A stretch of 57,067 bases of DNA, from positions 1 through 57,067 of IMG/VR virus record IMGVR_UViG_3300025909_000008; one strand, 5' to 3'. Below are positions 20,244-52,008 of the stretch, in pieces (positions within the stretch are counted from its first letter, which is position 1; each line of letters opens with the position of its first letter). The notes under the pieces are model-generated. The model was given only the letters and a program-made list of their open reading frames with translations. It did not search any database and was not told the origin of the DNA. This stretch comes from a virus. The position numbers were made by a program, and so were the translations under genes.

Positions 20244-20768
20244 CTAGGGGATGCGATTTAGCAGCGCCTCAGAGACCGACTGGTCGAGTGAGATACCTGC
20301 TCGAGGGTGATGAGCGCATGATGCAAGTACCCGAGCCCTCAGGAAACGTGAGGCGCGCAACACGTCATCCGGGGCATTCCAGAAGTGCGACAGGCCCGAC
20401 GGGTGTGGAAAGGCCCAGAGAACTACCCCGCCGCGTGAGTGGAAACCGAACCAGTCGAGGTGCTCCACACCGAACGCAGCCATCACCTTCCGGCCGCAGA
20501 GGATGACGTCGAGCAGATCTTCGGGATCGTGGTCGTGCCACTTGGTGAGGAGGTGGATGGCGCGCTGCCGAGCGAACTTGCGGTCGAACCGGTCCCAGGC
20601 GGGCTGAGATACCTTCTCGAAGATGTTGAGCATGTCGAGGGCGTCGGTCAGTTCGTCGTACGACTTGAGCCCGAGGAGCGATTGCAGTCGGCCACCGGAT
20701 GGCCCAGTGAAGGGTCGACCGTCGCCCTGTAGTGAGGGTGCCTCGCCGACCAGGATGGGTTTGGGCAT
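20244..20768 (-). CDS. Uracil-DNA glycosylase superfamily protein
   Basis: A 174-residue protein with both UDG superfamily signatures: motif 1 ILVGEAPSLQGDGRPFTGPS (about 5-24; 'GEAPg..G.PF.Gp.G') and motif 2 FPHPSGLSHFWN (about 118-129; 'HPSG.s..wN'). It lacks the four Cys of family 4, so family 5/6-like or MUG/TDG-like relatives are possible. It would remove a deaminated or otherwise odd base, or process a modified one. The start is supported by TAGGAGG. It converges on the late operon and follows a structured terminator behind the upstream gene. Confidence 0.75.
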   Translation of the reverse strand: MPKPILVGEAPSLQGDGRPFTGPSGGRLQSLLGLKSYDELTDALDMLNIFEKVSQPAWDRFDRKFARQRAIHLLTKWHDHDPEDLLDVILCGRKVMAAFGVEHLDWFGFHSRGGVVLWAFPHPSGLSHFWNAPDDVLRASRFLRARVLASCAHHPRAGISLDQSVSEALLNRIP

Positions 20769-23875: not shown

Positions 23876-24319
23876 ATGACCCTGGAAGAGCATGCTCGAT
23901 CCGAGCTTGGTCGGCTCGGGTGGTTGAGCGGGGACAACATCCAGAGTGGCCAGGCGATGCTCGACGCGGTGATCGCTTTCTCGAAAGGCGGTTGGAGCGG
24001 GGGCAGTGCCCCCTTCGGCATCGCCATCGTGAACGACCTGCTCAACTACAGACCGCTAGGGCCCCTTACTAGCGATGATCGCGAGTGGCAGTATGTCCAT
24101 GATGACCCCGATTGCTGGCAGTCTCGCCGACGCCCCGACGCCTTCAGTGAGGATGGTGGGCTCACCTACTACTGCCTCGACGAGCTGCCGGTCCGACACG
24201 ACTTCTGGCCCTGGCTGAAGTGGAAGCTCAAGCTGGGCGAGCATCCGCCCGGCTATACTTCTCCAGGGCGAGACATGAAGAAGCTCAAGCGCTACAAGTC
24301 AGAGAGGCCGGGAGCATGA
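23876..24319 (+). CDS. Conserved early phage protein of unknown function
   Basis: A 147-residue protein with the stretch YRPLGPLTSDDREWQYV, then CWQSRRRPDAFSEDGG. The pattern 'l.PLt..ddEW..v' followed by 'c...R....f.' recurs in many unnamed phage proteins. The start at 23876 follows GAGGAGG; the longer upstream frame covers the promoter. It ends in an ATGA overlap with the kinase gene, so it belongs to that operon. Confidence 0.7.
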   Translation: MTLEEHARSELGRLGWLSGDNIQSGQAMLDAVIAFSKGGWSGGSAPFGIAIVNDLLNYRPLGPLTSDDREWQYVHDDPDCWQSRRRPDAFSEDGGLTYYCLDELPVRHDFWPWLKWKLKLGEHPPGYTSPGRDMKKLKRYKSERPGA

Positions 24320-24861
24320 TCATTGTCGAGGGGCCTGACGGGGCTGGTAAGTCGACCTTCGTGCAACAGCTGGCTGAACACCTCCAGATGCCTATCGCCG
24401 AGAAGGCGGTGGGCCATCAGATGGAGAGGCTGACTGACATCCAGCGCTACGTCGAGACCACGCTGCGAGAGGGCTTCCAGCCCAAGATCTTCGACCGGTT
24501 CGCACTCATCTCGGGGTGCATCTATGGGCCGGTCTTCAGCATGGATGGCACCAACGTCGAGTTCAAGAACTTCGACTGGCTCGAGTCGGCGCAGACAGAG
24601 CTCCTCGAGCGGGTCGACCCCGTGATCGTCTGGTGCCTGCCTCCGCTGAAGGAGGTCATCCACAACATCACCCACAGCCCGGAGAATGCCTTCCTAGCCA
24701 AGGCCAAGGGCATCGAGAAGGTTCGGCAGGTCTACTGGCTGTACCACTGCCGGGCCTCGATTGACTCCATCCCCATCATGTATGACTACACATCCGATGA
24801 CATCAAGAGGGTGTTCATGGATGTCGAGACAGAGTTGGAGCGGCGCGATGGCAACCAGTAA
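24316..24861 (+). CDS. Deoxynucleoside monophosphate kinase (thymidylate kinase-like)
   Basis: A 181-residue P-loop kinase. The start in an ATGA overlap gives MIIVEGPDGAGKSTFVQQL (Walker A, 9-17). KIFDRFALISGCIYG is the 'DR' motif region of dTMP kinases, and PVIVWCLPP is the strand before the lid. T4 gp1 is a functional parallel: it phosphorylates ordinary and hydroxymethylated dNMPs. Here the gene lies directly upstream of a MazG-like enzyme and two ThyA-superfamily genes, so it probably serves the same nucleotide pathway. Confidence 0.82.
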   Translation: MIIVEGPDGAGKSTFVQQLAEHLQMPIAEKAVGHQMERLTDIQRYVETTLREGFQPKIFDRFALISGCIYGPVFSMDGTNVEFKNFDWLESAQTELLERVDPVIVWCLPPLKEVIHNITHSPENAFLAKAKGIEKVRQVYWLYHCRASIDSIPIMYDYTSDDIKRVFMDVETELERRDGNQ

Positions 24862-25321
24862 CTGGCGCGATGTCGGGGAGTTCCACGAGAAGTTCGGGCT
24901 CCCTCACGTCAAGGGCGATCCCGGCCCTCGAGAGTTCGACGACGAGGCGTTCCGCTTCAGGTACAAGTTCCTGCGCGAGGAGCTCGACGAGTTCTCCGAC
25001 GGCTACTTCGATGGCGACCACGCCAAGATGGCCGACTCGTTGGTGGACCTGGTCTACGTCGCGCTCGGCACGGCTCACATGCTGGGCTACCCCTGGCAGG
25101 AGATCTGGAACGAGGTTCAGCGGGCCAACATGGCGAAGGTCCGCGCACAGCCCGACGGGTCTGACTCGCTCCGCGGCTCCTCTCTCGACGTTGTCAAGCC
25201 CGAGGGTTGGCAACCGCCGGACGTCGAGGCCATCATGGCTCGCTGGGGCTTCCCGACGCCCGATGAGGTCCAGGACCAGAGGTTGACAAATGTTCCAGTG
25301 TCCGATATCGTAGAAGGGTGA
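24848..25321 (+). CDS. MazG-like nucleotide pyrophosphohydrolase
   Basis: A 157-residue all-alpha NTP pyrophosphatase. The N-terminus (DVGEFHEKFGLP) and the metal-binding motifs (FLREELDEFSDGYFDGDH with the EExxE core; MADSLVDLVYVALGTAHMLG with the second acidic pair) are characteristic, and WNEVQRANMAKV closes the core. The gene overlaps the kinase gene by 14 bases. T4 uses an all-alpha dCTPase-dUTPase (gp56) to remove dCTP; the same role here is inferred from the neighbouring hydroxymethylase-like genes. House-cleaning of odd dNTPs is an alternative. Confidence 0.85.
   Translation: MATSNWRDVGEFHEKFGLPHVKGDPGPREFDDEAFRFRYKFLREELDEFSDGYFDGDHAKMADSLVDLVYVALGTAHMLGYPWQEIWNEVQRANMAKVRAQPDGSDSLRGSSLDVVKPEGWQPPDVEAIMARWGFPTPDEVQDQRLTNVPVSDIVEG
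25283..25311 (+). promoter_or_regulatory. Internal promoter for the 25326 gene
   Basis: TTGACA (25283-25288), 17-base spacer, TATCGT (25306-25311). It lies inside the 3' end of the MazG-like gene and starts a transcript about 8-10 bases before ATG 25326, with GTGAGGA as a short ribosome-binding site. Confidence 0.65.
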
Positions 25322-25325
25322 GGAA

Positions 25326-25559
25326 ATGCTGAACGCCAAGGCAGAGAGGATCTTGAAGGAATGCGAGGATACTGGGGAACCGGTCTTCATCTTCCGAGCC
25401 AAAGACTTCTTCGCGCCGCAGGTTATCGTTCACTACGTCGAGCTCGTCGAGAAGTTCGGGCCGACGGACCTGGACTTCCAGGCGCAGATCGTCGACCGGC
25501 TCCAGGAGATCAAGGACTGGCAGAGGGAGAACATGGGCCAAGTGAAATACCCCGACTGA
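25326..25559 (+). CDS. Small unknown protein
   Basis: A 77-residue hydrophilic protein, mostly helical (LNAKAERILKECEDTGEPVF; IVHYVELVEKFG; IVDRLQEIKDWQRENMG). It has its own promoter. The function is unknown; the position between the pyrophosphohydrolase and the ThyA-like genes suggests an accessory to nucleotide metabolism. Confidence 0.65.
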   Translation: MLNAKAERILKECEDTGEPVFIFRAKDFFAPQVIVHYVELVEKFGPTDLDFQAQIVDRLQEIKDWQRENMGQVKYPD

Positions 25560-25567
25560 TCGACTGG

Positions 25568-25669
25568 GTGTGGAAGATCAGTCACGCTGTCTTCTACGGC
25601 ACCATCTTCCTGCTCATCGTCCTCTTCGTCCTCGCCGCGCTATTCGTCGCGGTGGCCATGATCCTCTAG
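25568..25669 (+). CDS. Short single-span membrane peptide
   Basis: The frame encodes GTG-started WKISHAVFYGTIFLLIVLF followed by VLAALFVAVAMIL: one long hydrophobic span of a 33-residue peptide. No strong ribosome-binding site is visible and the start is uncertain. The strongly hydrophobic composition in an otherwise hydrophilic gene cluster argues that it is real. Confidence 0.45.
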   Translation: MWKISHAVFYGTIFLLIVLFVLAALFVAVAMIL

Positions 25670-25678
25670 GAGAACCAC

Positions 25679-26719
25679 TTGAAAGCCTACAGGGCACCGA
25701 CCCTGACTGAGCTCCACGACCTTCTCTGCACGAGATTGATCGAGGCGCCGGCCAGCGGGCTGGACGTCATCTCAACCGTCGACGTTCAGATCCACAACGT
25801 AATAGCCCAAGCCAACTCCATGGAATGGGACTTCGACCTCAAGAACATGTGGCTCACCAAGTCGCGGTGGTCCATGATGATCAACCAGTACCTCGACCCC
25901 GAGGAGCTGCGCATCTGGCTCGAGCGCTGCACCGGGATGATCGGCACTCGAGGGCGCGGTATCGCCACGCTCCGTACCAAGACCGTCCGACCCCGCGGGG
26001 GCGCTGCGACCGGGCACACCAACAAGGAGACGAGGCGGTGGGGATCATGCATGCTGGCCATGACCTACAAGGCAGTGCCACGGCCGCAGATCACCCTCTA
26101 CTCACGGACTTCATACCTGGGTTATATCGGTGCGCTGGACCTCTCGGTTGCGTGGATGGCTGCCCGGTACCTCGGATCTGCGATGGGGATGGACCCCGCG
26201 GAGTTCCGGTTCGTCTGGATGAACGAGGCGATCCAGTGGCACAACTTCAAGAGCCTCGCCTTCATGCTCAACCACCCCGATGAGGACCGTCGGAAGTTCT
26301 ACCGTGAGGTGATCCTCAAGCCTGACGTAAAGCTCAAGCCCAAGCACGTCGAGTACATCGAGGAGCACCCCGCCGTCCAGCTCTCGCGGAAATGGATGCA
26401 GAACCTCAAGAAGGACGACGCTGCCGGCAAGACCTACGGCGACATGAACTACAACACCTACCGCCGCATTCGCCGCCGCTACCACACCGAGGTGCTGGGC
26501 TTCGAGAAGGCTCAGGAGTTCGAGGGGTGGAGCTACTACAAGCAGGGCCCCAAGCAGGGCGAGCAGAAGGAGTTCTTCAAGGCCTACGGCGAGCTGCCTC
26601 ACGTTCCGATCCAGGAGTGCGACTTCAGTCGGTTCGGGCTGCTCCTCGGCGGTGACTGGGCTACACCCTTCGACGCTGACGCCGCGGCTCTCATGGAAGA
26701 TGAGGACGACGACGAATGA
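25679..26719 (+). CDS. Divergent ThyA-superfamily protein (Asp at the Asn177 position)
   Basis: A 346-residue protein starting at TTG 25679 behind CTAGGAG. The core WGSCMLAMTYKAVPRPQITL, YSRTSYLGYIGALDLSVAWM aligns by eye with E. coli thymidylate synthase from Cys146: Cys124 is the nucleophile, Arg143 matches Arg166 of the phosphate site, and the residue 11 past that Arg, Asn177 in TS, is Asp154 here. Asn-to-Asp at this site is known to mark dCMP hydroxymethylases. Later motifs (VWMNEAIQWHN) are diverged, and the last 150 residues form an unfamiliar extension with an acidic end. It may be a hydroxymethylase, a partner subunit of the next ThyA-like protein, or another pyrimidine C5 enzyme. Confidence 0.7.
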   Translation: MKAYRAPTLTELHDLLCTRLIEAPASGLDVISTVDVQIHNVIAQANSMEWDFDLKNMWLTKSRWSMMINQYLDPEELRIWLERCTGMIGTRGRGIATLRTKTVRPRGGAATGHTNKETRRWGSCMLAMTYKAVPRPQITLYSRTSYLGYIGALDLSVAWMAARYLGSAMGMDPAEFRFVWMNEAIQWHNFKSLAFMLNHPDEDRRKFYREVILKPDVKLKPKHVEYIEEHPAVQLSRKWMQNLKKDDAAGKTYGDMNYNTYRRIRRRYHTEVLGFEKAQEFEGWSYYKQGPKQGEQKEFFKAYGELPHVPIQECDFSRFGLLLGGDWATPFDADAAALMEDEDDDE

Positions 26720-27111
26720 TCCAGCTGGTGGTCTACTACCGCAGCGAGGGGTGGCGATGTTTCCAGGTACCTCCCGACTCTGGCTGGCGAGTCGACATCA
26801 CCCACCGACAGCTCATCGTCGGGCACGGAGTACCTCGAATCCATATCCCCCTCGACAACGTTCTCTACTACGAAGTGGAGCAAATACATGCTCGTCCTGA
26901 ACAGAACCTCGTTCGACTCCATGGAGCACGCGCTGACGGTGAGCCTGCTGAACGCGACCTCAGTGGACGTGGGGGAGTGGCACGCCCAGTCGACGGAGGG
27001 CAACCCGCTGCTGGTCACCAAGGAGCTCCAGGATGTCATCTTGGAGATTGCAGTACCCCGGCAGATGACCGAAGCCCAGGACGTATTCCGACCCAACCTT
27101 CCATGGGCTGA
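26716..27111 (+). CDS. Small protein with a long out-of-frame overlap into the next gene
   Basis: It begins in an ATGA overlap with the preceding gene. Residues 1-58 (MIQLVVYYRSEGWRCFQVPP; VDITHRQLIVGHGVPRIHIP; LDNVLYYEVEQI) look like a genuine small beta domain of a type common in actinophages. The remaining 73 residues overlap the next ThyA-like gene and have the Arg/Gly/Ala composition of a shadow frame. The product is translatable as 131 residues, but the tail may carry no function, or a base error may hide an earlier stop. Confidence 0.55.
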   Translation: MIQLVVYYRSEGWRCFQVPPDSGWRVDITHRQLIVGHGVPRIHIPLDNVLYYEVEQIHARPEQNLVRLHGARADGEPAERDLSGRGGVARPVDGGQPAAGHQGAPGCHLGDCSTPADDRSPGRIPTQPSMG

Positions 27112-27688
27112 AGCCCACTTCCAGGAACGGCTCGACCCCGACTGCCCCAACCCCCCGCCGTCGCATGAGCTCTGGCCTTGGGCCCATGCTACCCACCAGA
27201 AGGGTGAGCAAGGTGAGTTCAGCCACACCTACCCGGAGCGATACTGGCCCAAGTTTGCTAACGTCGGTGAGACGAGGCCTAATGGGCGCCAGGTCTTTGT
27301 GCCTCACAATGGCATCCGATATGAGTACGGGGATCTTGGCGATCTGGTGGCCATGCTTCGGCGGAATGGGAATACCCGCCAGGCCTATCTCCCGGTCTGG
27401 TTTCCAGAGGATACTGGCGCAACTCACGGCGAGCGCGTCCCTTGCTCACTCGGCTACCACTTCCTTATCCGAGAAGGCCGGCTGTCATGCCGTTACTACC
27501 TCCGGTCCTGCGACTTTGTCAGGCACTTCCGCGACGACGTCTACCTGACCGCCCGACTCATGCAGTGGCTCACGGAGCAGTTGCCGGGGGTCACGGTCGG
27601 GCGGCTCAACATGTACATCAGCAGCCTCCACATCATGTCGGGGGATGAGTTCAAGCTCAAGAGGGAGTTGGCCAGTGCCAAGGGATGA
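26888..27688 (+). CDS. Thymidylate synthase / dCMP hydroxymethylase family enzyme
   Basis: This 266-residue protein keeps the ThyA fold in full: N-terminal MLVLNRTSFDSMEHALTVSL, HTYPERYWPKF (the TS YG..W region), Arg164 before PVWFPED (the subunit-crossing Arg region), VPCSLGYHFLIREGRLSCRY with nucleophile Cys186, then YLRSCD with Arg206 and Asp209, and Tyr/His residues near 243-248. Exactly 31 residues past Cys186, where E. coli TS has Asn177, lies Asp217. In T4 gp42 the corresponding Asp selects dCMP over dUMP, so dCMP 5-hydroxymethylation (with methylene-tetrahydrofolate) is the best reading. The start is ATG 26888. Confidence 0.82.
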   Translation: MLVLNRTSFDSMEHALTVSLLNATSVDVGEWHAQSTEGNPLLVTKELQDVILEIAVPRQMTEAQDVFRPNLPWAEAHFQERLDPDCPNPPPSHELWPWAHATHQKGEQGEFSHTYPERYWPKFANVGETRPNGRQVFVPHNGIRYEYGDLGDLVAMLRRNGNTRQAYLPVWFPEDTGATHGERVPCSLGYHFLIREGRLSCRYYLRSCDFVRHFRDDVYLTARLMQWLTEQLPGVTVGRLNMYISSLHIMSGDEFKLKRELASAKG

Positions 27689-27887
27689 CTGCGAGAACTG
27701 CGGCAACCGTATCGAGGTAATGATCTTCCGCGGAGAGGGGCATTGTAGTGAGCTCTGTCGAAAGGCCCTCCAGGGACGAGACGCTGATGGCGCTCGCGAT
27801 GGTGTGGGCAAGAAGAGGAACGTGCGGAAGACTGCAAGTCGGGGCGGTAGTAAGCAGGGAGGGAAGAAGCCTCGTAAGCGGGTATAA
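27675..27887 (+). CDS. Small zinc-finger-like protein overlapping the deaminase gene
   Basis: It starts at GTG 27675, overlapping the ThyA-family stop region. Residues 6-33 (CENCGNRIEVM, then GHCSELCRKAL) give a C-x2-C...C-x3-C pattern fit to bind one zinc ion. The C-terminal 40 residues are very basic and overlap the deaminase gene by 140 bases in another frame, so this part may be incidental. The function is unknown. Confidence 0.55.
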   Translation: MPRDDCENCGNRIEVMIFRGEGHCSELCRKALQGRDADGARDGVGKKRNVRKTASRGGSKQGGKKPRKRV

Positions 27888-28188
27888 CGGCGCACCCGCA
27901 GGGCTTCCTCACTGCGTTCACGATCCTGAGGATTCAGGGGGATGCGATGTTTCGATGCATGCAGAGGCGAATGCGATAGCATATGCCGCTCGACATGGGG
28001 TTCGCCTGGAGGGCGCAGAGATGCACTGCACTGATTCGCCCTGCCTATCGTGCGCTCGCCTGATCATCAACGCCGGCATCAATCGCCTCGTATACGCCAG
28101 GGAGTACCGCATTACCGACGGCGTTAGACTACTCCAACAGGCGGGGTTGACAGTGGAGTTCCTACCGAATATGATGGATCCATGCTAG
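27748..28188 (+). CDS. dCMP deaminase
   Basis: A 146-residue zinc deaminase: VGAVVSREGRSLVSGYNGAP, GLPHC, then HAEANAIAYAARHG (His-Ala-Glu active site) and CTDSPCLSCARLIINAGI (P-C-x2-C zinc ligands), the standard dCMP deaminase layout. GTG 27748 gives the usual 'RPSRDE..M..A' start. It would convert dCMP (possibly a modified dCMP) to dUMP for thymidylate supply. It overlaps the polymerase gene by seven bases. Together with the two ThyA-family genes it shows active control of the dCMP pool. Confidence 0.92.
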   Translation: MSSVERPSRDETLMALAMVWARRGTCGRLQVGAVVSREGRSLVSGYNGAPAGLPHCVHDPEDSGGCDVSMHAEANAIAYAARHGVRLEGAEMHCTDSPCLSCARLIINAGINRLVYAREYRITDGVRLLQQAGLTVEFLPNMMDPC

Positions 28189-30674
28189 GCGATATCCGCG
28201 ACGATCAGTGCACCAAGTGCAAGCTCCATCAGACCGCGGAGAACGTCTGCATCACCGGCACTGGCCCTCGAGATGCGAAGGTCATGGTCGTTGGCCGCAT
28301 GCCAGACTCGAGGAGCTACCGTGAACAGATGGCTACGACGCTTTCCGAAGTGGGCATTGATCCCGCTGGGGTGTTTTTCACTTCTGCTGTCAAGTGCCGT
28401 ACGTTCGATCAGGACGTGTCGACGGCAGACATCAAGGCTTGTCGAGAGTACCTCGACGCTGAGATCGCCCTGGTCAAGCCCGACTTCGTCATCACTCTCG
28501 GAAATGAGGCTCTTACCGGAGCAACTGGGCGATCAGGGATTACGAAGTATCGTGGTCGCCCCATCGAACGAGAAGGCTACACTGTTCTTCCAACGGTTTC
28601 GCCTGCCGCGGTACGACGTAATCCTGGTCAGACGCAAGGATACCTAGCTGAGCTGAGGTCCTTCGCTAACAAGATCTCTGGTATCGAGGGCAAACTAGGC
28701 AAACCCAAGGTAATCGTAGTCGATACACCGCGCAAGGTCAGGGCCGTCTATCGCCTGTTCGAGCAGGCTGCGGAGATGCACTATGACATCGAGACGACGA
28801 TGGGTGATGAGTTCCGACCGGACTCTCGCATCATCTCCTTCGCAGCAACGATGGTATTTGCGGATGGCAGTACGAAGTGCGTGGCGATACCACTATACCA
28901 TCCTGAGAGTCCGTTCCGACGATCCTGGCGATCCGTACTTCGTTACCTTGCTCCGGCACTCCAAGCGGTACCCAAGCAGATCGCGCACAACGGCAAGTTC
29001 GACGCGCGGTGGCTCCGTCACTTTGGGGTCATGGTACGAGTTACGTTCGACACCATGCTTGCCCAAGCACTACTTGACGAGAATCGTCAGAAGGGGCTCA
29101 AGCCTCTCGGAGTCAGTCGACTAGGGGTTGACCCCTGGGGCGTCGACAAGGCGAACTTGCTCGCGATGCCCCTCCGCGAAGTCCTCGAGTACAACGTCCT
29201 CGACACCTGGTACATGCGGCACATCTACATCCAGCTCAAGGCTGAGCTCCAGCAGAATCCGCGCCTGCTCGCCATCTTCCGCTACATCACCACCAACGCG
29301 AACAACGACCTCATCGACACTGAACGACGCGGGGTGTGGATCGACGTCGACCGCCTCAAGAAGCGCAAGCCTGAGGTGCAGATCAAGCTCGACGAGATCG
29401 AAGCCAAGATCATGGAGTGGGTACCTGACCGCGATTCCACACCTACTTGGCCGACCGACTCTCGAGGGCGCAAGGTGGCGGTGAACTTCAACGCGAGTAA
29501 GTTCGCGCGGTGGTTCCTCTTCGATCACCTCGAGATGCCCGTCCTAGCTCGAGGGAAGAACAAGCCCAACGGTGATCCCGGTGACCCCAGCATGGCTGAG
29601 GACGTCATGCTGCAACTGCGCGACGACATCGGGCACCCAGTGATCCAGCTACTACTCGACCGAAGCTGGTGGTTCAAGGCACTCTCTAGTTTCTTCAACG
29701 CCTACGAGGAGCTGGTAGATGATGAGCACCGCATTCACACTACGTTCAAGCTTGCAGGTACTGTCACGGGTCGGCTTTCGAGTGGAAAGGCTGACGAGGA
29801 CAAGATCACTCAGCGGACAAGTAAGAGTCGCGGCGTCAATCTCCAACAAGTCCCTCGAGATCCTCTTGTCCGAGGGCTCTTTGGCGCCCCTCCTGGTTGG
29901 ACTTGGGTGGAAGCTGACTTCAGTCAAATCGAGCTACGGATTGTTGCCTACATCGCCAGGGTGGATCGTATGCTTAGAGCGTACGCCACAGGCGAGGACA
30001 TCCACCTCGTCACGACCGCGTCCGTCACGGGCCTCCCGATTGACCAGATCACCAAGGAGGTCCGTAAGAAGATCGGCAAGCCGGTCAACTTCGGCTTCAT
30101 CTACGGCATGGGCTGGCGCAAGTTCATCTACACCGCGTTCAACAACTATGGGGCAGTTTTCTCCGAAGCTGAAGCTCGAGCATACCGTACTCGGTTCTTC
30201 GAACTCTACCCCGAGCTTCTATCGTGGCATGCGAGACAGCGCTCGCTGGTCGAGAAGTATGGCCGAGTCAGCTCTCCTATCGGCAGAATTCGACACCTCC
30301 CCGACATCCGCTCTGCCGACGATGGAGTCCGACATGAAGCGGAACGTCAGGCGATCAATAGCCCGGTACAAGGGTTCGCCTCTGACATGACACAGCTCAG
30401 CATGGTGCTGATCAACCGCAGGGCGCGCAAGGATAACATGCAGGATGTGGTTCGATGCGTCGGGTCAGTTCACGACGCGCTCAACTTCGAGATCCGTGAC
30501 GACGCCGTGGGGTATGCCCTGCCGTTGATCAAGGATACGATGGAGAACCTGCCCTTCAAGAAGCTCTTCGGGATCGAGGTCGATGTCCCGATCATCGCCG
30601 ATCTGAAGGTGGGTACTCACTGGGGCGACGCAAGAGAACTCGAGGCCGAAGAGGTCTACGCATGGGCAAGCTGA
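28182..30674 (+). CDS. DNA polymerase I with N-terminal UDG-like iron-sulfur domain
   Basis: An 830-residue replicative polymerase with three parts. Residues 1-165 form a family-4 UDG-like domain: Cys10, Cys13, Cys72 and Cys87 match the 4Fe-4S ligands, but the catalytic motif 1 reads VVGRMPDSRSY and motif 2 reads TVSPAAVRRNP with no His, so glycosylase activity is doubtful. About 195-360 is a 3'-5' exonuclease (HYDIETT; IAHNGKFDARWLR; EYNVLDTWYMRH). About 440-830 is the polymerase: motif A DFSQIELRIVAYIA, motif B KKIGKPVNFGFIYGMG, motif C GSVHDALNFEI. SPO1 polymerase has a similar domain fusion. The gene probably replicates the phage genome with the primase-helicase encoded at 42481. Confidence 0.93.
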   Translation: MLGDIRDDQCTKCKLHQTAENVCITGTGPRDAKVMVVGRMPDSRSYREQMATTLSEVGIDPAGVFFTSAVKCRTFDQDVSTADIKACREYLDAEIALVKPDFVITLGNEALTGATGRSGITKYRGRPIEREGYTVLPTVSPAAVRRNPGQTQGYLAELRSFANKISGIEGKLGKPKVIVVDTPRKVRAVYRLFEQAAEMHYDIETTMGDEFRPDSRIISFAATMVFADGSTKCVAIPLYHPESPFRRSWRSVLRYLAPALQAVPKQIAHNGKFDARWLRHFGVMVRVTFDTMLAQALLDENRQKGLKPLGVSRLGVDPWGVDKANLLAMPLREVLEYNVLDTWYMRHIYIQLKAELQQNPRLLAIFRYITTNANNDLIDTERRGVWIDVDRLKKRKPEVQIKLDEIEAKIMEWVPDRDSTPTWPTDSRGRKVAVNFNASKFARWFLFDHLEMPVLARGKNKPNGDPGDPSMAEDVMLQLRDDIGHPVIQLLLDRSWWFKALSSFFNAYEELVDDEHRIHTTFKLAGTVTGRLSSGKADEDKITQRTSKSRGVNLQQVPRDPLVRGLFGAPPGWTWVEADFSQIELRIVAYIARVDRMLRAYATGEDIHLVTTASVTGLPIDQITKEVRKKIGKPVNFGFIYGMGWRKFIYTAFNNYGAVFSEAEARAYRTRFFELYPELLSWHARQRSLVEKYGRVSSPIGRIRHLPDIRSADDGVRHEAERQAINSPVQGFASDMTQLSMVLINRRARKDNMQDVVRCVGSVHDALNFEIRDDAVGYALPLIKDTMENLPFKKLFGIEVDVPIIADLKVGTHWGDARELEAEEVYAWAS

Positions 30675-48499: not shown

Positions 48500-49180
48500 A
48501 GCGTGTATAGGCGCCGGGGGCGTGTATAGGCGTATGCTGGCATACCCGATGCCCTGCGTCGAACTCAGGCGCGCAGGTTGCGATCCTTCGTGATGCATCA
48601 TGGCGCGATGATGGCGAGGTGCAGGTGCAGGTGCAGGTAGAGGTGGTGCATATCGGACATATAGGATCCGGGGGCATATATGCCGGGGGCATATAGGAGG
48701 GATAGTAGGATAAGATGGAAACCGATCTGACATATCTCATCCTCATCCATAATTCGGACATAACGATACCGCATTGACATTGGCGAACCGCAATCCCATA
48801 TCGGACATATGCGAACCGATGCCATAAGAAGGAACCGCATCCCCATATAGGACTGTCTTGTGTCTATCTTTGTCCGATTTTTTCCTCTTCATCCTTCCTT
48901 TCTGGAGACGACAAATCGGACATTGTTCCGACCCGCGCATTGAACCCCCCCGGTGGAATAAACCGCCCAAAACCGACCCCACACATTCCGGACCGTGGTA
49001 CGTGCTGACTGTACACTGTTTTCCAAATGTCTCACCACGGTAAACCAAGTCACCTCGTGACCCGGAGGTACGTGCTGACTGTGAGCTCCTGTCCAAATGT
49101 CTATCCCACGTGTGCCTTACGATACTCAGGTTGGAACAAACTCATCAACTCGTCCGGCCCCGTGGCCCCTCATGAGTTCC
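48500..49180. other. Repeat-rich noncoding region, candidate replication origin or control region
   Basis: Nearly 700 bases without a gene. It contains four related units around GGGGGCRTRTAKR (48503-48690), a TGCAGG tandem (near 48617), five ATGTCCGATTT-type boxes, two near-copies of GAACCGCAATCCCATATCGG (48785 and 48835 areas) and a direct repeat with 70-base period (48997 and 49067). The AT content is higher than in the genes. Iteron-like repeats in a large gap suggest an origin or a complex control region. Confidence 0.55.
48997..49110. repeat. Direct repeat pair, 70-base period
   Basis: GGTACGTGCTGACTGT starts at 48997 and again at 49067. Both continue with TCCAAATGTCT and end in CCACG, giving two near-identical units of about 44 bases. 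They lie 70-180 bases before the late promoter at 49181, a natural place for an activator or antiterminator site. Confidence 0.75.
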
Positions 49181-49210
49181 TTGACAAATCGCTCCTAGAG
49201 ATGATAGTCT
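49181..49210 (+). promoter_or_regulatory. Promoter directly upstream of the late-operon terminator
   Basis: TTGACA (49181-49186), 18-base spacer, TAGTCT (49205-49210). The expected start near 49217 is only about 10 bases before a strong intrinsic terminator. It is the only good promoter found before the virion operon. Confidence 0.7.
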
Positions 49211-49227
49211 TGTATCGTCGCACGAAG

Positions 49228-49249
49228 AGCCGCCTCTGGCGGCTTTTTT
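49228..49249 (+). terminator. Strong intrinsic terminator/attenuator before the late operon
   Basis: AGCCGCC-TCT-GGCGGCT (49228-49244) followed by a T run (49244-49249). This is the only classical intrinsic terminator with a U tract that I noticed here. It lies between the promoter at 49181 and the first late gene at 49277, so late transcription must bypass it. Confidence 0.88.
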
Positions 49250-49276
49250 CTTGTCAAGACACACTGGAGGCGTACA

Positions 49277-49567
49277 ATGGCCGTCAAGGGCATCCAGCTG
49301 GCTGTCGCCGCGACGGCCACTCGGCTCAGCCAGCCCGAGAACGACGCGAACACCGGCAACTCGGTCATCTTCACCAACCCCACACCCAAGAACCTCTACG
49401 TCGGCGGCTCCGGCGTCACCAACAGCACGGGCGGCAACCCCGGGGCCCTGGTGCCGGCGGGCTCGGTGATGAGCTTCGACCTCACCCAGAGCGACGACAT
49501 TCTCTACGGATGTGTGGATACCGCCGACGCCGGCGCCGTGTTCCACATCCTGGTTACGGGGGTCTGA
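49277..49567 (+). CDS. First late gene: small virion-type beta protein
   Basis: A 96-residue protein with GGAGG before ATG 49277. The sequence (AVKGIQLAVAATATRLSQPE; IFTNPTPKNLYVGGSGVTNS; GALVPAGSVMSFDLTQSDD) reads as all-beta with many Thr, Ser and Gly, as in small surface or fibre-accessory proteins. It directly precedes the fibre gene. Confidence 0.7.
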   Translation: MAVKGIQLAVAATATRLSQPENDANTGNSVIFTNPTPKNLYVGGSGVTNSTGGNPGALVPAGSVMSFDLTQSDDILYGCVDTADAGAVFHILVTGV

Positions 49568-49569
49568 CC

Positions 49570-52008
49570 ATGGCTGGTCCTCGCAAGTCCGGCGGGGTCG
49601 TCACTCCCCCCGCTCCATCCACCGCCCACACCCACATCGAGGCCGATGTCACCGGCTTGACGACTGACCTCGCCGCCAAGGCCCCCGCCTCTCGCCTGGT
49701 GGCGGGGCTGGCGCTGACCGCCGACATCACCGTGAGCGCTCTGAAGACTGCTCTGGCCTTGGTGAAGGGTGACGTCGGGCTCGGCAACGTCGATAACACG
49801 AGCGACGCGAACAAGCCGGTCTCGACAGCCCAGGCCACTGCCCTCGCTAACAAGCTACAGTACAAGGGTGCCTGGGATGGCACGGCGACAGCCTACTCCA
49901 CGAATGACGTTGTAAGTTCTGCTGGCTCGCTGTATCGAGCCAAGCGGAACATCGCGGCGCCCTCATCGACACTGACCTACAGGGGGTATGGGGTCAAGGC
50001 GGCTGGCACTGGTAACGGCAGCACGATCCAGGTGCCGCTGCCGGCCGGCTCGGTTGCTGGCGATCTCTGCATCGCCCTCTGGGGTGGTCCGCAGTCGGCT
50101 GGTGTTGCGCTGAGCGTTCCATCGCCCGCTGGGTGGACAATCTTCGGCAGCCGGCAGGACAGTAACATCAACAGCTGGATCTTTTCGTACCTGATGTATA
50201 GGACGCTGACAGCCACAGACATCACGAACGGCTATGTCGACGTCAGTAACCAGAGTTATCCGACCGGCTATGGTGACGCCGGCGTGATCTGGGTCTACGC
50301 ATCCAACGCGAGCATTGACGCGGCGACGATCAGCCAGACTGGTGGTAGCGCGGGCACACTGACCTGGCCGTCCGTGACATCGACGCAGGCCAACGACGAC
50401 ATCTTGCAGGGCGTCGTTGGTGGCATCAACTCGACGCCGACTGGGTGGGACACGAGCGGGGCGTTCGAACGGAACACGACGTCGGGCGCGCTGGCTGGAG
50501 CAGAGTCTCCAGTGACTCGGGTAAGTGCCAGCGCGGGCGTACCGGCGCGGACGTTTACGACGAGCGGGGCGGCCCAGGGCTTGCACAACTGGTCGATCGC
50601 GGTCAAGGGCACATCTATCCCTAATACGCTAAATGCAAGTGACTGGGACCTCTTAGCTAACGGCGCATCTCTGACGGTTCAGGACGAGAACGCGAACGTC
50701 TCGACCGCCGTCACGCAGATCGACTTCCAGGGCGCCGGGGTCACGGCTACCGCCGGAACCGGCGAGGTCGTCGTCACCATTCCCGGAGGCACCACCACGA
50801 CTTCTGGTCTGCTGTCGGCACGGCCGACCGCAACCGGGTCGAAGAACCTCTACTACGCGACCGACGTGCAGCAGGTCTACGTAGACACGGCTGCGGGGAC
50901 GTGGTCCCCGCTGGCGCAGGCGTCCTACGACCCGCGCCTGTTCGCCTACAACACTTGGGCAACCCCGAAGCATCGTGCGGCTAATGCTCGTGCCCGCAAC
51001 GCGGAGCAGACCGAGCATGTCCTTGGCGTCTTCGATTCGATCGGTGCTGGCTCTACCGGCATTTCAGGCAACCAGGCAACCAACTCCTGGCCTGGACGCG
51101 CCCGGACGCTTCTGGAGCAGAAGACCGGCGTCATAGTCGGCACCGGCATTGTGGAGATCGCATCGGCAGCTACGGGTGGCGGGGGGCAGCCTGTCGCTAC
51201 GTCGGCCGGGTCGACGTACCCCTACGTCACGTCGAGCGGCCTGTCACAGTTCAGCCAGGGCGGTCTGTCCGGTTTCGCCTATACCAACAGCGCGGGCGGG
51301 ACGCTCACGTTCGGCTTCCAGACGGTCGGCAGCAACGCGACGATCAAGGTCTGGTGCTACAACTACAACGGCAACTTCGCGTCCACGTCGGTCAGCCTCG
51401 ACTCGGTGGGACAGACTGCCATCACCAAGGGCGCGACCGCTTCCAACGCCTTCTTCACCGCCTCCTACACGGTGGCGAGCGCCGGGAACCACACGATCGT
51501 CCTGACCTCCACGGCCGGCATGTACATCATCGGCTTTGAGGTAATCGAGAACACGACCAGCGGTGTCAAAGTCACGAACCTCGGCCAGGCGGGCCGCAAG
51601 ACCAGCGACATCACCGGCCGCATCTCGGGCGCACTAACCGCCTACGCGCCTGACGTGACGCTCATCGGCCTCGGCACCAACGACATGTTGCAAGGTGTCT
51701 CCACCTCCACGTTTCAGACGAACATGCAGACCCTCATCACGGCCGCTCTCACGACGGGCGACTGCATCCTTGTCGTCCCACCCACGGACGGCAGCGGAAA
51801 CAACAATTCGGCGCTCATGCAGTCCTACTCGGCCGTGTACTACGCCCTAGCGGACAGCAACAACATCCCGATCGTGGACATGAACAAGCGGTTGATCAAC
51901 TACTCGACGGGCCTGCTCAACGACGGCGTCGGTCACCTGACGAACCGTGGCGCGTGGGAGTTCGCCGCAGCGGTCGGCGCTGTCCTAGGCCAGGCGGTCT
52001 GGCTCTAG
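49570..52008 (+). CDS. Tail fibre / receptor-binding protein with SGNH hydrolase domain
   Basis: An 812-residue protein. The N-terminal 120 residues (VKGDVGLGNVDNTSDANKPV, STAQATALANKLQYKGAWDG) are a widespread phage fibre module. About 130-340 is an all-beta domain, and about 345-440 holds further fibre repeats. From about 480 an SGNH hydrolase begins: VFDSIGAGSTG (block I, nucleophile Ser), TLIGLGTNDML (block III Asn) and DGVGHLTN (block V Asp/His). A carbohydrate-binding-like beta domain is inserted between blocks I and III. It probably deacetylates or cuts host surface glycan during adsorption. Confidence 0.88.
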   Translation: MAGPRKSGGVVTPPAPSTAHTHIEADVTGLTTDLAAKAPASRLVAGLALTADITVSALKTALALVKGDVGLGNVDNTSDANKPVSTAQATALANKLQYKGAWDGTATAYSTNDVVSSAGSLYRAKRNIAAPSSTLTYRGYGVKAAGTGNGSTIQVPLPAGSVAGDLCIALWGGPQSAGVALSVPSPAGWTIFGSRQDSNINSWIFSYLMYRTLTATDITNGYVDVSNQSYPTGYGDAGVIWVYASNASIDAATISQTGGSAGTLTWPSVTSTQANDDILQGVVGGINSTPTGWDTSGAFERNTTSGALAGAESPVTRVSASAGVPARTFTTSGAAQGLHNWSIAVKGTSIPNTLNASDWDLLANGASLTVQDENANVSTAVTQIDFQGAGVTATAGTGEVVVTIPGGTTTTSGLLSARPTATGSKNLYYATDVQQVYVDTAAGTWSPLAQASYDPRLFAYNTWATPKHRAANARARNAEQTEHVLGVFDSIGAGSTGISGNQATNSWPGRARTLLEQKTGVIVGTGIVEIASAATGGGGQPVATSAGSTYPYVTSSGLSQFSQGGLSGFAYTNSAGGTLTFGFQTVGSNATIKVWCYNYNGNFASTSVSLDSVGQTAITKGATASNAFFTASYTVASAGNHTIVLTSTAGMYIIGFEVIENTTSGVKVTNLGQAGRKTSDITGRISGALTAYAPDVTLIGLGTNDMLQGVSTSTFQTNMQTLITAALTTGDCILVVPPTDGSGNNNSALMQSYSAVYYALADSNNIPIVDMNKRLINYSTGLLNDGVGHLTNRGAWEFAAAVGAVLGQAVWL

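Follow-up and report, generated by a model that had tools for sequence, protein, structure and literature searches.

In the part of the MetaGPA study drawn on here (PMC8670742), replacing Asn177 by Asp turns thymidylate synthase (TS) from dUMP to dCMP use, Asp at position 177 dominates the TS genes of cytosine-modified viral contigs, and TS co-occurs in such contigs with PF01503, PF00383 and PF14437. The equivalent residue has the same cytosine role in the phage T4 enzyme gp42 (Asp179), and T4-type dCMP hydroxymethylases are further marked by a signature comprising Asp/Glu three residues before the catalytic Cys and a Ser/Thr-x-Tyr motif (PMC6400193). Asp186 serves the same role in MilA, the CMP 5-hydroxymethylase of mildiomycin synthesis (PMC5175136), and TS homologues of Mosigvirus make 5-hydroxy-dCMP (PMC13390438). 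Here we analyze a gene cluster from the IMG/VR virus record IMGVR_UViG_3300025909_000008, which was taken whole as a window of 57,067 bases. The cluster encodes a nucleoside monophosphate kinase, a MazG-like pyrophosphohydrolase, two TS-superfamily proteins that we call T1 and T2, a dCMP deaminase and a family A DNA polymerase (PolA). We consider it likely that it represents a phage operon replacing cytosine by a C5-modified cytosine that is made as a nucleotide.

To define the distribution of the module, we used a T2 profile search of IMG/VR, which returned 450 relatives; the best 80 of these were fetched, and 68 viral loci, chosen in this way by T2 similarity, had enough flanking sequence for a gene-order count. 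Because the complete set of kinase, MazG, T1, T2, deaminase and polymerase was present in this order within 4 kb in 57 of the 68 loci, and nine more were missing only a detectable MazG, the cluster is conserved far beyond chance. T1 lay directly upstream of T2 in 66/68 loci, and the kinase preceded T2 in each of the 66 flanked loci having the module, while the remaining two of the 68 carried T2 without T1, deaminase or an adjacent polymerase, their kinase and MazG genes following a primase gene. Co-occurrence in relatives had been set beforehand as a point on which the original prediction could fail, and it held. Direct reading of phages of Streptomyces, Microbacterium, Curtobacterium, Gordonia, Serratia, Pseudomonas and Yersinia showed this order as well, and isolates with the module come from two bacterial phyla. 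Phage collections contained T1 in 85 records from actinophages and 15 from other phages and T2, at a coverage of at least 80%, in 106 records, some of these records being GenBank/RefSeq duplicates. In cellular genome collections just eight contigs of metagenome-assembled genomes matched, the majority also carrying further genes of the module, and the module therefore looks viral in nature. The T1 gene can also be duplicated, with one locus (L085:5110-6980) harboring a tandem pair of T1 copies upstream of a single T2. The Mycobacterium phages Muddy (L004; T1 is gp47 and T2 gp46) and JacoRen57 (L007) keep T1 and T2 and have no annotated dCMP deaminase; in both, a hypothetical protein takes the deaminase slot, and for Muddy a QueC-like protein has been noted in the literature.

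The active site of T2 points to cytosine. Its nucleophile Cys186 as well as Arg206, Asp217 and His248 are invariant in 79/79 sequences, Asp217 occupies the position of Asn177 in ThyA, and the alignment places no TS C-terminal tail in the protein. MilA was the best PDB match of the T2 profile (2.6e-9), whereas Foldseek ranked AfhB, a dCMP-specific enzyme of TS fold from phage HY126 (9iqu/9iqc), first (2.9e-12) and MilA close behind (1.2e-11), so that T2 has its nearest neighbours, by structure as well as by profile, among dCMP/CMP C5-modifying enzymes. T2 further resembles MilA in the Arg located six residues past the Arg of the R-S/A-x-D motif, and it shares Thr/Ser at position 147 with both MilA and T4 gp42. 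The likeness to gp42 extends to the TS fold, the catalytic Cys, the Asp at 177 and the SLH motif, and gp42 likewise has no TS C-terminal tail. According to these features, T2 probably works on cytosine like gp42. MilA itself differs in preferring ribonucleotides, in having an Asp three residues before the Cys and in serving antibiotic synthesis.

T1 is labelled 'hypothetical' in nearly all records and falls in phrog_13667, a PHROG annotated 'unknown'. It had no match in Pfam, NCBIfam or PDB sequences, its profile found nothing among PDB sequences with hmmsearch, and hhalign comparison with T2/TS gave E-values of 0.06 and 0.006 with the wrong region aligned. Profile comparison was dropped as too insensitive for linking T1 to T2 or TS, and the fold was settled by predicted structure. 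For the AlphaFold2 model, built from 71 sequences (predicted local distance difference test, pLDDT, of 93.6), the best Foldseek match in the PDB was the AfhB dCMP hydroxylase (E 2.8e-7), followed by MilA, thymidylate synthases and T4 gp42, and the 50 best matches all belonged to the TS superfamily; TM-scores against AfhB were modest, being 0.56 by AfhB target length and 0.37 by T1 length. Cys124, Arg143 and Asp154 are invariant in 71/71 sequences and stand in register with Cys146, Arg166 and Asn177 of E. coli ThyA, with Cys124 opening a strand, Arg143 lying in the strand that follows and Asp154 eleven residues on. This register is retained in the divergent versions from Serratia, Pseudomonas and Yersinia phages. 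Judged by the model, T1 is a TS-fold protein, and with Asp154 at the Asn177 position its best reading is that of a dCMP-type member. The original prediction was right in counting two ThyA-superfamily genes here, although one of them was missed by sequence searches and matched to the family by its predicted structure; it passed over the fact that both appear to be of the dCMP type.

We also scored the presence of ThyX, ThyA, dihydrofolate reductase (DHFR), carbamoyltransferase and family 2 glycosyltransferase (GT2) genes in 46 large relatives. A real thymidylate synthase besides T1 and T2 was encoded by 18 of them (ThyX in 17, a canonical ThyA in one), and DHFR by none of the 46; the window contains neither ThyX nor DHFR. 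In Triscuit, the canonical ThyA with Asn177 (gp67) even adjoins T2, and in MW202455 and MW202777 ThyX lies inside the same operon. Because T1 and T2 carry Asp177-type residues, a separate synthase occurs in 18/46 relatives and DHFR is missing, the best reading of these sequences is cytosine modification at the dCMP level and not dTMP synthesis.

The set of genes, its order and conservation, the folds of the proteins and their cytosine-type active-site residues together suggest a pathway with the following substrate, product, direction of flux and incorporation into DNA. The MazG-like enzyme, a putative dCTPase, would clear host dCTP to dCMP. T2 would recognize cytosine through Asp217 and add a group, most likely hydroxymethyl, to C5 of dCMP, upon which the kinase together with host enzymes would carry the modified dCMP to the triphosphate and the adjacent PolA would build the modified dCTP into DNA. 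Excess dCMP would be diverted by the dCMP deaminase to dUMP and so feed thymine production. T1, as the second cytosine-type TS-fold protein, would act on the dCMP that T2 uses, on its modified form or as a helper of T2, candidate roles that belong to the explanation we hold likely as a whole. As to the C5 group, hydroxymethyl is in our judgement the foremost candidate with somewhat less than an even chance, hydroxyl is a distinctly weaker one and methyl is weaker still, the rest falling to other groups or none.

Compared to T4, the locus shares a gp56-related pyrophosphohydrolase, a dCMP deaminase (cd in T4) and a polymerase nearby. The hidden Markov model (HMM) of the MazG slot matched the T4 gp56 dCTPase (39.6 bits), and in Serbin, Muddy, KimJongPhill and P744 the same operon slot holds proteins of PF08761, the gp56 family. 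In contrast to T4, a second TS-fold protein is present for which T4 has no counterpart, the polymerase belongs to family A and carries a uracil-DNA glycosylase (UDG) domain, and no glucosyltransferase was found. The cytosine-directed module proposed in the original prediction is hence upheld as the best explanation, given the Asp at the Asn177 position in T1 and T2, the gp56 homology and the co-occurring set, while its description as a T4-like set stands in part. The homology lends support to a gp56-type dCTPase, and T2 has the TS fold, Cys and Asp177-position residue expected for gp42-type hydroxymethylation; T2 departs from gp42 in its signature residues and its separate deep clade, and the proposed gp1-type kinase was not borne out.

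Several observations weigh against the pathway as drawn. T2 has Arg183 at the position of T4 Asp145 in 79/79 sequences and His113-Thr-Tyr115 where T4 has S94-x-Y96, with His113 standing for Ser94. The Glu58/60 position, by sequence alignment, is an Asn in T2, and this Glu is otherwise universal and needed for folate activation; a Glu is found nearby, at Glu75 in 67/79 and at Glu80 in 79/79 sequences, and either may substitute for it. In the phylogenetic tree T2 forms its own deep clade of the TS superfamily on a long branch (support 100/99), and a placement beside T4 gp42, RB69, ViI or AXL1 was rejected, the neighbours of the clade being unsure because of long branches. Since Arg183 and His113-Thr-Tyr115 break the signature and the clade is separate, T2 cannot, by its sequence, be filed as a gp42-type hydroxymethylase. 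The kinase HMM did not match T4 gp1 (E 0.12). Among the window open reading frames (ORFs) scanned, neither a glycosyltransferase nor another enzyme for decoration was recognized, in line with what had been stated before on glycosyltransferases, and GT2 (PF00535, the sole glycosyltransferase family tested there) was found in 6/46 large relatives. T2 occurred without a detected T1 or dCMP deaminase in the fragmentary viral records L065, L088 and L092; in L065 and L088, a Prim-Pol primase comes after T2, and kinase and MazG come after the primase. Finally, a mirror-tree test, which is weakened by loci having been picked by T2 similarity and gives a hint at most, linked T1 with the polymerase (partial r 0.61) and the kinase, and T2 with the deaminase and MazG, and revealed no co-variation of T1 and T2 beyond shared history (partial r 0.02). 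The link of T1 to polymerase and kinase would be in keeping with a role of T1 in fixing the nucleotide's final form, though this is only a hint.

The directly adjacent position of T1 and T2 could reflect a physical pairing, in which a catalytically inactive T1 of TS fold joins T2 to form the active enzyme, an arrangement compatible with cytosine modification. TS active sites do borrow Arg residues from the partner subunit (T4 Arg123/124; PMC6400193). However, the conservation of Cys124, Arg143 and Asp154 in every T1 sequence is unlike a dead subunit, T1 co-varies with the polymerase and not with T2, and T2 stands without T1 in some fragmentary records, leaving this a possible but doubtful arrangement. 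A model with T1 and T2 as complementary half-sites was rejected, as Cys and Asp are kept in both and the mirror-tree, within the limit given above, shows no signal between them.

The Foldseek results raise a second alternative, namely flavin-dependent 5-hydroxylation, with T2 or T1 acting as a 5-hydroxy-dCMP synthase like AfhB/RB69 and the DNA containing 5-hydroxycytosine. AfhB, with PDB entries containing dCMP and FAD, leads for both T1 and T2, T2 matches this group in fold and Asp177, and it has no aligned Glu58, the residue needed for folate activation. On the other hand, the margin of AfhB over MilA for T2 is tiny, and the Glu three residues before the Cys and the Asn at 169 of AfhB/RB69 are both absent from T2, which has Arg183 instead of the RB69 Glu and Asp209 instead of the RB69 Asn. 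Moreover, RB69 has a sugar-modifying gene cluster, whereas neither an RB69-like sugar-transfer gene set nor a flavin reductase was recognized here. We thus regard 5-hydroxylation as unlikely.

We give similarly low credence to the idea that T1 is a TS-fold enzyme of a new, folate-independent kind, which takes the T2 product as its substrate and yields a hypermodified cytosine nucleotide before replication. The chemistry, tentative to the same degree, would have the T1 Cys add to C6 of 5-hydroxymethyl-dCMP, the hydroxyl leave and another nucleophile join the exocyclic methylene; a nucleotide-level change would then replace the decoration of hydroxymethylcytosine in DNA. Such a role would be in keeping with three observations: no glycosyl- or carbamoyltransferase was recognized, the Cys, Arg and Asp of T1 are invariant, and T1 co-varies with polymerase and kinase.

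Formation of 5-methyl-dCMP by T2 is very improbable. We took AXL1, a relative of the 5-methylcytosine phage Xp12, as the comparison for this Xp12-type methylation; its TS resembles T2 in Asp177, a residue found in enzymes able to methylate dCMP, and adjoins MazG-like and deaminase genes (PMC9206674). However, AXL1 has a single TS gene with DHFR beside it and keeps polymerase and helicase outside the block, and its gp63 retains the TS-like C-terminal tail that is missing in T2. Reductive methylation oxidises folate, and with DHFR found neither in the window nor in the relatives, a host DHFR could serve folate recycling in place of a phage enzyme.

An ordinary thymidylate supply, in which a MazG-like 'dUTPase' and the deaminase yield dUMP, T2 makes dTMP and the kinase dTDP, agrees with the presence of a dCMP deaminase and a thymidylate-kinase-like protein and with gene names in Gordonia CT phages, described as 'thymine synthesis' (PMC10353413), but is highly unlikely in view of the invariant Asp in place of Asn177 in T1 and T2, the missing C-terminal tail, the separate ThyX/ThyA genes and the lack of DHFR, and it leaves T1 unexplained. 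The 'thymine synthesis' name is itself unlikely to hold, given the invariant Asp and gp42-like features of T2, the separate synthases and the missing DHFR.

The MetaGPA contigs contain the same Pfam set (TS, PF01503, PF00383, PF14437) with Asp177. They differ in a co-occurring carbamoyltransferase, and the part of that report drawn on here describes no T1-type protein (PMC8670742). A carbamoyltransferase partner was rejected for the present module, with 0/46 large relatives encoding one. The module is probably a cytosine-modification operon in a new arrangement, which pairs two divergent TS-fold enzymes of the cytosine type and shows no recognized sugar or carbamoyl transferase. Our search of the literature gave no direct evidence that isolates carrying the operon have modified DNA; it did not cover two 2025 works on glycosylated 5-hydroxycytosine, in which the operon may have been described earlier.

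If cytosine modification is correct, Muddy, the Gordonia CT cluster and many other sequenced phages have cytosine-modified DNA that is unreported in the literature found, and their 'thymidylate synthase' and adjoining 'hypothetical protein' are misannotated. The same gene set is labelled ordinary 'thymine synthesis' in dozens of well-studied bacterial viruses. Modification would bear on how these phages behave towards restriction and CRISPR and in sequencing, and cultured isolates with the operon exist. Muddy was isolated on M. smegmatis, and close relatives are recorded from M. abscessus. For phrog_13667, a family of unknown function, the analysis provides a predicted fold, active-site residues and a candidate substrate.

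Within the window, all five predicted gene classes were found on the + strand by Pfam and PHROG matches and, for T1, by predicted structure. Neighbouring genes overlap end-to-start in several cases, and PolA directly follows the cluster, as predicted, its start overlapping the deaminase end (Table 1).

Table 1. Genes of the module in the window and the matches that identify them.
Feature	Position	Strand	Match
Kinase (P-loop (deoxy)nucleoside monophosphate kinase, thymidylate-kinase-like)	24316-24861	+	phrog_761 thymidylate kinase 9.6e-16
MazG-like all-alpha NTP pyrophosphohydrolase	24848-25321	+	PF01503 (PRA-PH) 6e-13
Small ORF between MazG-like gene and T1	25326-25559	+	
T1, divergent TS-fold protein	25679-26719	+	phrog_13667 and predicted structure
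T2, thymidylate-synthase-superfamily protein	26888-27688	+	PF00303 (Thymidylat_synt) 5e-8
dCMP deaminase	27748-28188	+	PF00383 1e-21, phrog_174 4e-51
PolA, family A DNA polymerase, UDG-fused	28182-30674	+	PF03167, PF01612 (3'-5' exonuclease), PF00476

The dCMP deaminase carries the zinc motifs HAE and PCxxC and matches PF14437 in addition to PF00383. PolA has an N-terminal UDG/UdgX-like domain (PF03167, 5.8e-17, residues 26-151), a fusion also seen in 7/10 relatives tested. Its motifs GRMPD and TVSPAA (28182-28650, +) look degenerate, and the domain may bind rather than cut. A separate stand-alone UDG-superfamily protein (20244-20768, -; PF03167, 3e-7) shows the more canonical motifs GEAP and HPSG. 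Overlapping the kinase from upstream, the gene at 23876-24319 (+) matches Pfam Tad3, 'Type I Thoeris inhibitor' (2.3e-25), by which it is a predicted anti-defence gene adjoining the modification cluster; phmmer found no relative of it among the 80 IMG/VR loci. Farther away, a long ORF (49027-52008, +) ends in a C-terminal GDSL-like lipase/acylhydrolase domain (1.1e-14).

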